43,404 nt of DNA. Origin: Thermoplasmata archaeon. Its GTDB lineage: Archaea; Thermoplasmatota; Thermoplasmata; Thermoplasmatales; Thermoplasmataceae. The stretch is taken from positions 1 through 43,404 of the forward strand of contig JAJZXS010000011.1 of assembly GCA_021806295.1 (NCBI GenBank), given 5' to 3'. Position numbers and translations under genes: made by a program. This document shows, piece by piece, positions 35,119-39,926 of the stretch. Position 1 is the first letter of the stretch; every line of letters begins with the position of its first letter. The notes beneath the pieces are model-generated. The model was given only the letters and a program-made list of their open reading frames with translations. It ran no database searches and had not been told where the DNA came from.

Positions 35119-36546
35119 CTATATGATTGCTATCCCGGCCAGGTATGTGTACAGTGCAAAAGATACTCCGAGACCAAGCGTGATTAATCCCATTATAATT
35201 ACACTGTATTTTATTCCCGGTGCCATGTTGAAATCATTATCGCCCTCCTTTCTATATGAGTATATAATAATTCTGAAATAATAGAATATGGAGATGGCAC
35301 TGTTGATAATTGCTATAACGGCAAGCCACCATAGATTTCCTATGATGAGTGAAAAGAACAGGAAATATTTTGCTATGAATCCTCCGGTAAGAGGAACGCC
35401 TGCCAGAGATAGGAGCATTATAGCCAGGAACAGGGCAGTCCATCTGGATTTTTTGCTCAGCCCTACTATATCATCTATCATGACCTTATCGCTTTTTACA
35501 AGGCTCATTGCTATGAATGGCCCTGCCTTCATGAAAATATATGCTATAGCATAAAACATTGCCGATGCGATGGCAAATCTGACGAAAACTTCCTTGGATA
35601 CAAGGACTGCAGGATAGTATGAATATCCAATCAGCGCAAATACCAGTATCATATACCCGGCCTGGGCAATGCTTGAATAACCCAGTATTCTTTTCAGATT
35701 GCTTTCCATCAAAGCCGCAAGATTTCCATATGTCATTGTTAGTATTGCGAGTATCGCGAAGAAGAAGAAAACGTAGTTATAGTCCGGTATAAATCCTAGA
35801 AACAGGAATTTTAAAAGTATCATATATGCTACAAGCTTACCTCCTGTAGACAGGAATGCTGATACAGAATTCGGAGCACCGTCATATGTATCTATTGCCC
35901 ACTGCTGCATGGGGAATATTGCTATCTTAAAACCGAATCCGATAGTTATGAATACCAGGGCCAGGAGAAGGGACCGATTGAAATCAACACCCCCGCCGAA
36001 ACCGATGCCTGCCGCTGCGGCATTTAAATTGAACGTCCTGGTAGATAGATAGAAGAATGCTATTCCCATTATATTGAATGATGTTCCGATGGTGCTGATC
36101 ATGAAATATTTTAAGGATGCCTCCAGGTTGCGCTTTGTCTTATTATATGCTGTAAGCACATATGTTCCGATACTAACACCCTCAAAGGACACAAACAGTA
36201 CAATAAGGTTATAGGTAAATGCTGCGATAACCATTGAAAGTGCAATAAATAATAGAAGAGCGTAGTAAACATCAAATCTCTTCTTTATATCGTTCATTGA
36301 TGGTATTATAACCACCATAATGGAAACTAGAAATATCAATGCCCAGTAGGTATCAAAGGACGAAATGTTAAGCGATAGAATACTGTAATTCTTTTCCTGG
36401 AAAAGCAGAATGAAAAATGCTGCGATCAGAACGATGAAAGTAAATCCTCCCAGTATTCTCTTGCTGTCTGTTTTAATCCCTGCTGCCAGTGTTATAAATC
36501 CAGCCAGGCCCAATAATATCAGTGCGTAAAGGTATTCATAAATCAT
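35119..36546 (-). CDS. nuoN: NADH-quinone oxidoreductase-like subunit N
   Basis: A 475-residue antiporter-like subunit with about 14 membrane helices, one of the three proton-pumping subunits of complex I. Conserved features include VLFVSFEGVSIGTYVLTAYNK (the glutamate in TM5, here SFEG), LVFITIGFGFKIAIFPMQQWAIDTYDGAPNSVSAFLSTGGKL (the Lys helix and the PxHxWxxDxxxGAP-type loop) and LKRILGYSSIAQAGYM. The start overlaps the nuoM stop (ATGA). It is followed by two uncharacterised genes. It should act in a membrane complex with subunits C, D, H-N of the same operon. Confidence 0.94.
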   Translation of the reverse strand: MIYEYLYALILLGLAGFITLAAGIKTDSKRILGGFTFIVLIAAFFILLFQEKNYSILSLNISSFDTYWALIFLVSIMVVIIPSMNDIKKRFDVYYALLLFIALSMVIAAFTYNLIVLFVSFEGVSIGTYVLTAYNKTKRNLEASLKYFMISTIGTSFNIMGIAFFYLSTRTFNLNAAAAGIGFGGGVDFNRSLLLALVFITIGFGFKIAIFPMQQWAIDTYDGAPNSVSAFLSTGGKLVAYMILLKFLFLGFIPDYNYVFFFFAILAILTMTYGNLAALMESNLKRILGYSSIAQAGYMILVFALIGYSYYPAVLVSKEVFVRFAIASAMFYAIAYIFMKAGPFIAMSLVKSDKVMIDDIVGLSKKSRWTALFLAIMLLSLAGVPLTGGFIAKYFLFFSLIIGNLWWLAVIAIINSAISIFYYFRIIIYSYRKEGDNDFNMAPGIKYSVIIMGLITLGLGVSFALYTYLAGIAII

Positions 36547-38036
36547 ATTAATCCCCCCAGATGCGATGCATATGCGGTCAGTATCTTAAATAGCAATGTC
36601 GGATAAACCCCGAGGAAAATGGTTCCGGCCAGGATGAATAATAATATAAGAAATTCCTGCTTATTTATATCCTTTAATCTTCCCAGGCGCTCGTTGAAAT
36701 ATCCAAACAGGGACCTCTGTGCGGCCCATATGTAAAAAGCAGCGGTGATTATAAGCCCGAGTACTATGAACAGTGTGTATAACCCGATGCTCTGGAATGA
36801 CGATATAGTAACAGAAAATTCGCCTATGAATCCTGCCAGGGAAGGTAATCCCAGTGATGCCAGCATTCCAATCAGAAGGAAGGAGGAAAGCACTGGTAGT
36901 TCTCTGTTTAATCCTCCTAGATCGTATATCTTTGATGTCTGTGTTCTTCTGTAAAGCATGGAAAGCGATGCAAATATAAGTGCTGCAACAAAGGTGTGCG
37001 CTATTATCTGATACATACCACCAGAAAGGTCAAGTGTTCTGACGTAACCTGTAGATAGAAGTGCAGTACCAAATGCAATTGTAATGAAAGCCATTTCAGC
37101 TGCACTACCATAGGCAGCCATCCTTTTGAGATCGGTCTGGAATAAAGCTGAAAATGAGAAGTATATTACGCTAATCAATCCCAGGAGTATGATAAAGTAT
37201 GCAAGGGCCCGTGGAAACAGCCCTGCAACAGGATACAGTATACCCAGAAGGCCATAGCCACCCATGGCCACAAGACCTCCGGAAAGCATTATTGTTCCGG
37301 AATAAGGTGCATCATTATATGCGTCCGGAAGCCAGGAATGCAGCGGGAATGATGGAAGTTTTATCAGGAATGCAAGCAGGAACCCGAATATAATGAAATA
37401 GAAACCTGAATTTGGTACGGTTTCCAGGAATGAAAGAGCTGTTAGATCCCTTATCTGAAATGTAAATATACCGGTATTGAGAAAATAGTATGTGGATAGA
37501 GTAAATATTGATAAGAGCAGGAATAAAGAACCTATATGGGTATATATGAAGAACTTCAGGGAACTCCTTTCCCTGTTTCCGGTTCCGTACTTTCCTATTA
37601 TGAAAAATACAGGAATCAGGACCACTTCCCAGAAAATATAGAAGAACAGGAAATTTCTTACCATAAATAATCCAGCCAGCCCGAAGCCTGCGGCCATGAA
37701 TAATCCGTAGAAATATGCTCCATGGGATTTACTTCCCATTAATACTGCAAACATTGTAATAAACAGTGAAATTATCACGAGAAGATCGGTGAACCCTGTT
37801 AATCCCAGTGAAAAATCTATGTTTATTGTAATTCCACTGGCATGGAATTGCGCAAGCAGGGTATTATAATAAGCTATCACCCCGCCTGTGTAATTCCTAA
37901 ATTCAAATACTGAGTATATGATAAAAAACACAGTAAGTATTGCAAGAGATACCAGTGATACAGTTTTTGATTGATTTCCAGCGAAAAAGCTCAGTGCTGT
38001 AAGAATGAAAAACAGGATAAAGAAATACAGTAAAAT
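36543..38036 (-). CDS. nuoM: NADH-quinone oxidoreductase-like subunit M, AUU start
   Basis: About 497 residues, an antiporter-like proton-pumping subunit. Motifs include VLIPVFFIIGKYG (after the TM5 glutamate in FFYIFWEVVLIP), FLLAFLIKLPSFPLHSWLPDAYNDAPYSGTIMLSG and LKRMAAYGSAAEMAFITI. No ATG, GTG or TTG gives a whole protein: the first usual start (GTG, 37931) would cut off TM1. The frame extends upstream to the nuoL stop as ILLYFFILFFILTALSFFAG, a proper first helix. GGGGTGATC (38051-38043), the ideal Shine-Dalgarno, lies 6 bases before ATT at 38036, so AUU is the likely start. The end overlaps nuoN by 4 bases. Confidence 0.88.
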   Translation of the reverse strand: MLLYFFILFFILTALSFFAGNQSKTVSLVSLAILTVFFIIYSVFEFRNYTGGVIAYYNTLLAQFHASGITINIDFSLGLTGFTDLLVIISLFITMFAVLMGSKSHGAYFYGLFMAAGFGLAGLFMVRNFLFFYIFWEVVLIPVFFIIGKYGTGNRERSSLKFFIYTHIGSLFLLLSIFTLSTYYFLNTGIFTFQIRDLTALSFLETVPNSGFYFIIFGFLLAFLIKLPSFPLHSWLPDAYNDAPYSGTIMLSGGLVAMGGYGLLGILYPVAGLFPRALAYFIILLGLISVIYFSFSALFQTDLKRMAAYGSAAEMAFITIAFGTALLSTGYVRTLDLSGGMYQIIAHTFVAALIFASLSMLYRRTQTSKIYDLGGLNRELPVLSSFLLIGMLASLGLPSLAGFIGEFSVTISSFQSIGLYTLFIVLGLIITAAFYIWAAQRSLFGYFNERLGRLKDINKQEFLILLFILAGTIFLGVYPTLLFKILTAYASHLGGLI

Positions 38037-38039
38037 CGT

Positions 38040-39926
38040 TTAGATCACCCCAATTAGTTCAATAATTGCAAATATGACAACCATACCTATTATAAGAAAA
38101 GCCACATAAAACGGTATGTTTCCGGTTTCTATTTTCCTGAGATCTGAACCAAGGTCAGAAATACCTCTCCCTGTTTCGTCAACGCTATTATCGATCTCCC
38201 TTTCTCCTGCGCCGAATATGTATGAAATAGGAAGTATTATGCGCTCAGATATTATTTCTGTGTAAAGCCAGTCGAAGTAAAATTTATTCTTGATAACCCT
38301 GTAAAGAGGATTTTTAGAAATGGATGTATGCCCGTTGATATTGTAACGGTAGATGGCAAAGGCTATTCCTATCCCTATAAGGGAGAATACAACAGGCAGG
38401 ATCTCTATTGCCAGCGGCGGAGTATAAACAAATACAGAGGCATCGATGAATTTATAAAATGGCTTCTGTATTATGCCCAGCGTCAGTGAAAGGAATGCCA
38501 GTATTATAAGAGGGGATAAATAGATGAGTTTGGGATCGTGTGCCTGTTCTGCCAGTCTGGATCTAGGTTTTCCTAGAAATACAAGAAAATACATCCTGAA
38601 TGTATATGTTGCGGTAAGGATCTCCCCGAATATCAGTAGAAGCCATGGAATTATGTTGCCTGAATTTACAAAGTATTCATATGCCCCGGATATTATCTGC
38701 CCCTTGGAGAAATAGCCAGCTGTAGGTGGTATCGCCGCCAGTGTAAGGGCGCCTACTAGCATCAGTATGGCCGTTGCAGGCATTCTCCTGAAAAGGCCAC
38801 CCATGTCCTTTATATTTCTGAGCTCCATGAGTGTCATTAATATTACAGCTGCAGCCATGAAGAGAAGTGCCTTGAATACTGCATGGACAACTAAATGATA
38901 CATTCCAAATGCAACACCGGAATAACCGATTACACCTCCAAGGCCTATGGCTGCCATCATGTAACCCAGCTGGCTTATTGTGGAATACGCCAGTACACGT
39001 TTTATATCATTTACAACAATCCCAAGAATTCCGGCATAGAAGGCGGTAAATGCACCTATTATCACCACAGCATAAAGCGAGTATGATGAAGCGTAGTAAA
39101 ATAATGGAAACAGCCTTGCAACGAGATAAACACCTGCTGTAACCATTGTGGCAGCATGGATAAGGGCCGATACTGTGGTGGGGCCCTCCATGGAATCCGG
39201 TAGCCATACATGTAGTGGAAACTGCGCAGATTTCGCAACAGCCCCTCCGAGAAACAGTATTGTTGCCAGCGCAAGGACATTAGGCCCTATGGCTATTGAA
39301 ATGCTCCGGGCATTGTCAATAAGGTACGGTATGCTCAGGGGGCTTATGCCTGAGGGTACAACACTTATCAGCTTTGTATACAGAACTCCCATTCCTATTA
39401 TAAATAATAAATCTCCGACGCGGGTTACGATAAATGCTTTCTTTGCAGCCGCAGCCGCATTTGGCTTGAAAAACCAGAAGCCTATAAGCAGGTATGAACA
39501 CAGGCCCACTATTTCCCAGAACAGGAAGAATAAGACCAGGTTTGAGGAAACCACAAGGCCAAGCATACCCCCTATGAATAGAGACGTCTCAGAAAAATAG
39601 ATATTTTTCCTAGGATCTTTTTTCATGTAAAACATTGCAAAGAGGTTGATCATGAGAGACATAAAGGCAACCATCATGGCCATTATAACAGTAAGATGGC
39701 TGATGTATATTCCAACATTTATATTGTAAAACCATGTATAATGGGAATATATGTAACTATGATTTAGAAGATACAGGTAGGCAAGTATTACCAGCATCAA
39801 TGAACCCAGAATCATAAGGCTGCTGAAAATACCCGAATATTTTATCCTATACCTGCCAATTATGTATTCCAGTGGAAATGCTATGAGCGGAAGCAGGAAT
39901 ATGAAGTAATATAATATTGTTACCAT
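38040..39926 (-). CDS. nuoL: NADH-quinone oxidoreductase-like subunit L
   Basis: A 628-residue antiporter-like subunit with about 15 or 16 helices, the largest pump of complex I. Visible: LFFLFWEIVGLCSYLLIGFWF (TM5 Glu), FLGGAVAKSAQFPLHVWLPDSMEGPTTVSALIHAATMVTAGVYL (Lys helix and the conserved W-L-P-D-A-M-x-G-P-T-P loop) and IKRVLAYSTISQLGYMMAAIGLG. The C-terminus has the lateral helix region and a final helix, full length for the family. It overlaps nuoK by 7 bases, and its stop region carries the ribosome site for nuoM. Confidence 0.95.
   Translation of the reverse strand: MVTILYYFIFLLPLIAFPLEYIIGRYRIKYSGIFSSLMILGSLMLVILAYLYLLNHSYIYSHYTWFYNINVGIYISHLTVIMAMMVAFMSLMINLFAMFYMKKDPRKNIYFSETSLFIGGMLGLVVSSNLVLFFLFWEIVGLCSYLLIGFWFFKPNAAAAAKKAFIVTRVGDLLFIIGMGVLYTKLISVVPSGISPLSIPYLIDNARSISIAIGPNVLALATILFLGGAVAKSAQFPLHVWLPDSMEGPTTVSALIHAATMVTAGVYLVARLFPLFYYASSYSLYAVVIIGAFTAFYAGILGIVVNDIKRVLAYSTISQLGYMMAAIGLGGVIGYSGVAFGMYHLVVHAVFKALLFMAAAVILMTLMELRNIKDMGGLFRRMPATAILMLVGALTLAAIPPTAGYFSKGQIISGAYEYFVNSGNIIPWLLLIFGEILTATYTFRMYFLVFLGKPRSRLAEQAHDPKLIYLSPLIILAFLSLTLGIIQKPFYKFIDASVFVYTPPLAIEILPVVFSLIGIGIAFAIYRYNINGHTSISKNPLYRVIKNKFYFDWLYTEIISERIILPISYIFGAGEREIDNSVDETGRGISDLGSDLRKIETGNIPFYVAFLIIGMVVIFAIIELIGVI
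38043..38051 (-). promoter_or_regulatory. Perfect Shine-Dalgarno before the AUU start of nuoM
   Basis: GGGGTGATC on the minus strand overlaps the end of nuoL (ATC is its last codon) and complements the archaeal 16S 3' end (GAUCACCUCC). Six bases separate it from ATT at 38034-38036. It decides the start of nuoM. Confidence 0.7.

Follow-up and report, generated by a model that had tools for sequence, protein, structure and literature searches.

A very rare start codon, ACG, has most likely been kept through long evolution in the core respiratory gene nuoM by the lineage of a Ferroplasma-type archaeon. The codon (38039-38037) lies directly after the TAA of nuoL and, judging from the comparisons described below, it is the start of nuoM with a probability of roughly 0.7. 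The window, i.e. the whole stretch of DNA that was analysed, comprises 43,404 nucleotides and belongs to a draft genome of 1.47 Mb in 49 contigs (G000). The junction between the two genes contains the following features:

38040..39926, minus strand: nuoL, the upstream gene, taken from the ORF list and above the cut-off of the NCBIfam model TIGR01974 (NDH_I_L)
38042-38040, minus strand: TAA stop codon of nuoL, read from the sequence
38043..38051, minus strand: Shine-Dalgarno sequence GGGGTGATC in the last nuoL codons, read from the sequence and complementary to the congener 16S 3' end GGATCACCTCC
38037..38039, minus strand: ACG, most likely the nuoM start codon, at the ATG position of relatives and at spacing 3 after GGTGATC
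38034..38036, minus strand: ATT, most likely codon 2 (Ile); close congeners have Ile as codon 2 (ATA/ATT), four of them with ATG before it
36543..38039, minus strand: nuoM coding sequence, 498 codons from ACG, its translation above the cut-off of TIGR01972 (NDH_I_M)
37929..37931, minus strand: GTG, the first canonical in-frame codon and an unlikely start, the use of which would drop 36 conserved residues

Judged by these family models, NuoL and NuoM are complex I subunits of the ordinary kind. Read along the minus strand, nuoL closes with GAA CTA ATT GGG GTG ATC TAA and nuoM follows with ACG ATT TTA CTG TAT TTC. Both genes share one reading frame, so that no start upstream of the nuoL TAA is possible for nuoM. 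Downstream of it, no ATG, GTG or TTG occurs before codon 37 (the GTG at 37931), which lies past the first hydrophobic segment. A first-pass annotation of this DNA had claimed that the nuoM frame lacks these three codons ahead of its first helix and that a non-standard start is used directly at the nuoL junction, and both claims are borne out by frame and sequence. In the alignment to the NuoM model NF004503, model position 2 matches residue 2 counted from ACG, at a score of 631 that lies below the curated cut-off of 720.

The position of the start codon is indicated by homology. Junctions were aligned on the coding strand for the window genome and nine other genomes of its genus. At the start position of nuoM, ACG is present in G000 and G006 (both ggggtgatctaaACGATTTTACTG) and in G008 (gaggtgatctgaACGATTTTATTT) alone, and every other congener has ATG: G003, the nearest ATG relative (ggggtgatctaaATGATTTTACTG), G004 and G009 (both ggggtgatctaaATGATACTACTT), G001/UBA567 (ggggtgatataaATGATACTGCTT) and the more distant G002, G005 and G007. 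In G003, G004, G009 and G001/UBA567, this ATG stands directly after the nuoL stop and aligns with the ACG of the window, while the ATT of the window corresponds to their second codon, Ile (ATA/ATT). The AUU at 38036-38034, proposed as the nuoM start by the first-pass annotation, is therefore off by one codon and does not coincide with an ATG, GTG or TTG of relatives. The same annotation expected related junctions to keep the Shine-Dalgarno sequence together with ATG, GTG or ATT at the site of this AUU. The former is found in G006, G003, G004, G009 and G008, but the latter is not, as ATG lies one codon upstream and the site itself encodes Ile. The ACG most likely arose by a single T-to-C change from ATG.

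The perfect Shine-Dalgarno sequence that had been described before nuoM is real and strong and is located in the end of nuoL, although its pairing includes one G-U. The 16S 3' end used for this assessment is that of congeners (GGATGGATCACCTCC), with which GGGGTGATC pairs over 9 bases. The sequence is kept in G006, G003, G004 and G009, and the Shine-Dalgarno sequence of G008, GAGGTGATC, matches the congener 16S 3' end perfectly. The whole G000 draft contains no match to the pattern CTGGATCACCTCC; since the congener 16S end GATGGATCACCTCC does not conform to this pattern, the missing match is no evidence that G000 lacks the 16S gene. In G006, the orthologue-supported starts of 610 genes comprise 512 ATG, 57 GTG and 41 TTG. 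With spacing counted from the C of the GGTGATC register, the start follows GGTGA-type sites of this genome at a spacing of 1-5 in 51 of 53 cases (15 at 2, 12 at 3 and 20 at 4) and never at 6, a spacing that is also found for only 1 of 95 GGTG-type starts. An earlier and smaller survey that pooled G006 and G009 agrees with these numbers. After the GGTGATC of nuoM, ACG is reached at spacing 3, in the usual range, with codon 37 as the first canonical start, whereas ATT is reached at 6 and thus outside the usual spacing, which argues against the start assigned to it. Local RNA folding of the junction does not discriminate, as congeners with ACG and congeners with ATG both come out at about -6 to -8 kcal/mol.

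Among the alternatives, a start at the neighbouring AUU survives best, even though we consider it unlikely. After loss of the ancestral ATG, initiation would have shifted three bases downstream to 38036-38034, resulting in a NuoM that is one residue shorter and carries Met in place of Ile2. In archaea, the pre-initiation complex scans locally in the vicinity of the Shine-Dalgarno sequence (PMC6237735), and in an E. coli reporter set an ATT start reached 7-22% and an ACG start 0.1-1.5% of the ATG level (PMC6925171). Codons that mismatch at the middle base initiate very weakly in E. coli, which by analogy would count against the ACG reading. The ATT is also found in all three ACG species; this conservation is uninformative, since ATT is codon 2 in the ATG-bearing G003 as well and, out of 24 Ile codons of the ATT type, 7 are in any case shared by all four species. 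Besides the unusual spacing of 6, the AUU start faces the difficulty that the ACG would then have been free to drift, yet it is identical in three species. The chance of such identity in a free leader is about 0.06, as calculated from a fourfold-site identity of 0.394, a value that favours ACG as the start but is suggestive only.

AUG, GUG and UUG are given as the start codons of archaea (PMC7531240), and literature searches, with most subscription journals outside their coverage, yielded no paper describing an ACG start in this domain. Within 618 ortholog pairs of G006 and G009, compared over stretches of 1.2 Mb from each genome, nuoM is the only conserved start that turned to ACG in G006. 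CTG candidates aside, the other flagged starts were rejected as antisense shadows or because they lack a Shine-Dalgarno sequence and have a canonical start nearby. An ACG in G009 (agaaaactggaaataccattttACG), without a Shine-Dalgarno sequence and with a canonical start 4 codons later, was also discarded. With a single ACG among the conserved starts of 618 pairs, nothing points to editing as a general system, and we regard it as very improbable that the nuoM mRNA is edited from C to U at 38038 to give back AUG. To our knowledge, mRNA C-to-U editing is not known in archaea, a further point against this reading. What recommends it is that the mutation affects precisely the middle base, T having become C in the DNA, and that C-to-U editing makes the start codons of chloroplast ndhD (PMC9845219).

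Apparent CTG starts were observed in several places. In two species of one other genus (UBA447-like; L021/L045 and L023/L046), nuoM apparently starts at CTG (gggggtgctttaatCTG and gggggtgctttgatCTG, respectively), with a Shine-Dalgarno spacing of 4 and no ATG, GTG or TTG in the first 20 codons. A gene of G009 (within L115-L134) has an apparent CTG start (tagaggtgatttatcaCTGATAAGG) with the next canonical start 20 codons on, and its G006 orthologue (N-terminus MISGFAEAVYKNYNGSVYDLMDEALGKALEMAGLERKDLD) has ATG. Separately, a nuoM-like region of G016 (contig 3, 24222-25515) is split over overlapping frames, one match containing in-frame TGA and TAG; in this genome, which is 50% complete, the split probably reflects frameshift errors.

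The retention of ACG was followed in a tree of NuoL and NuoM from which the start codon was left out. Here, G000, G006 and G008 form a clade with moderate support (83/89), and G003 branches next (94/95). Since the ACG species group together, a single change suffices, and the best explanation would be that ATG changed to ACG in the ancestor shared by the window species and the two sisters nearest to it, and was then retained. In each of the three species with ACG, strong purifying selection acts on nuoM along its entire length. For codons 37 to the end, dS is 0.37 between G000 and G006, about 1.0 between G000 and G008 and 1.9 between G000 and G003, with dN values of 0.01, 0.04 and 0.05, respectively; ACG has thus been retained in three species up to a dS of about 1.0 along with a functional protein of low dN/dS. 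Codons 2-36 (dN 0 with dS 0.21; dN 0.11 with dS 1.03) are constrained as well and are therefore very probably translated. A NuoM that begins at the GTG at 37931, leaving the first 36 residues untranslated, has hardly any probability left: no canonical start precedes this GTG in frame, and congeners have retained the codon, but residues 2-36 are conserved at low dN/dS, come after an ATG in these relatives and align with NuoM models from position 2 onwards. Although the window assembly is a 49-contig draft, an error of sequencing or assembly, or decay of the gene, is just as improbable, given the same ACG in three separate assemblies despite their synonymous divergence, including the single-contig genome of G006 (1,859,113 bases), and the strong purifying selection, which makes a dead gene unlikely.

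Regarding the use of the ACG, we infer direct decoding as Met and termination-reinitiation at the nuoL-nuoM junction. The TAA abuts the ACG and GGGGTGATC lies in nuoL, a layout suggestive of the coupling to nuoL that had been proposed earlier for nuoM. Ribosomes finishing nuoL would be held by the 9-base Shine-Dalgarno sequence in its end, which would leave the ACG where a start codon normally sits. Present at the junction in this way, a ribosome or small subunit would then place the initiator tRNA on ACG often enough, and the initiator Met-tRNA (anticodon CAU) would start at this codon even though the middle base gives an A-C mismatch, so that the product would begin with Met-Ile-Leu-Leu-Tyr-Phe. 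As a tentative account, to which we give slightly less than even odds, nuoM would be ACG-initiated directly because post-termination ribosomes, held by the Shine-Dalgarno sequence at the abutting stop, escape start-codon proofreading. If true, start-codon identity would be nearly neutral at such abutting junctions. The weak ACG start may lower NuoM output, or its effect may be masked by coupling. Two reports from Sulfolobus weigh on the other side: aIF1 was reported to discriminate against non-canonical starts, which counts against the ACG reading (PMC6237735), and no coupling was found for a gene pair with adjacent UGAGUG and a Shine-Dalgarno sequence, which counts against coupling (PMC6728339). 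A dedicated initiator or an altered Thr tRNA for ACG was considered and rejected: among the best 30 of 40 tRNA genes, tRNA-Thr CGT is normal-looking and the initiator-type gene (L077, judged by eye) has the anticodon CAU. A changed aIF1 was rejected as well, the protein being identical in the two genomes compared, G000 (ACG) and G003 (ATG). With an identical aIF1 and a normal initiator anticodon, no special factor is visible. A further tRNA gene in L085 (1501-1600), above the Rfam cut-off and not called by ARAGORN, possibly contains an intron.

A naturally fixed ACG that goes back to one base change and is shared by three species in a conserved gene offers a clean test of archaeal start-codon strictness after adjacent termination, and gene callers restricted to ATG, GTG and TTG would shorten NuoM by 36 residues. 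Among known systems, the AUU-initiated bacterial genes infC and pcnB have in common with nuoM a rare near-cognate start behind a strong Shine-Dalgarno sequence. In nuoM, however, the homologous start position is ACG, a middle-base mismatch, in an archaeon and in a respiratory operon without known initiation-factor autoregulation. The apparent CTG starts in relatives of the same family, including those of the UBA447-like nuoM genes, are likewise starts other than AUG, GUG or UUG with a Shine-Dalgarno sequence, but with CTG the mismatch falls on the first base, and this codon is better known as a weak start. The plastid gene ndhD, which encodes the homologous complex I subunit (NuoM/NdhD), opens with ACG as well. 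There, the start is restored by C-to-U RNA editing (PMC9845219), whereas nothing suggests editing at nuoM, and the occurrence of an ACG start in the same gene in plastids and here is probably a coincidence. Archaeal termination-reinitiation (Huber et al., 2019; PMC6728339) likewise involves touching stop and start codons with a Shine-Dalgarno sequence in the upstream gene; the cases studied are ATGA or TGATG overlaps with canonical starts, whereas the start of nuoM would be ACG.
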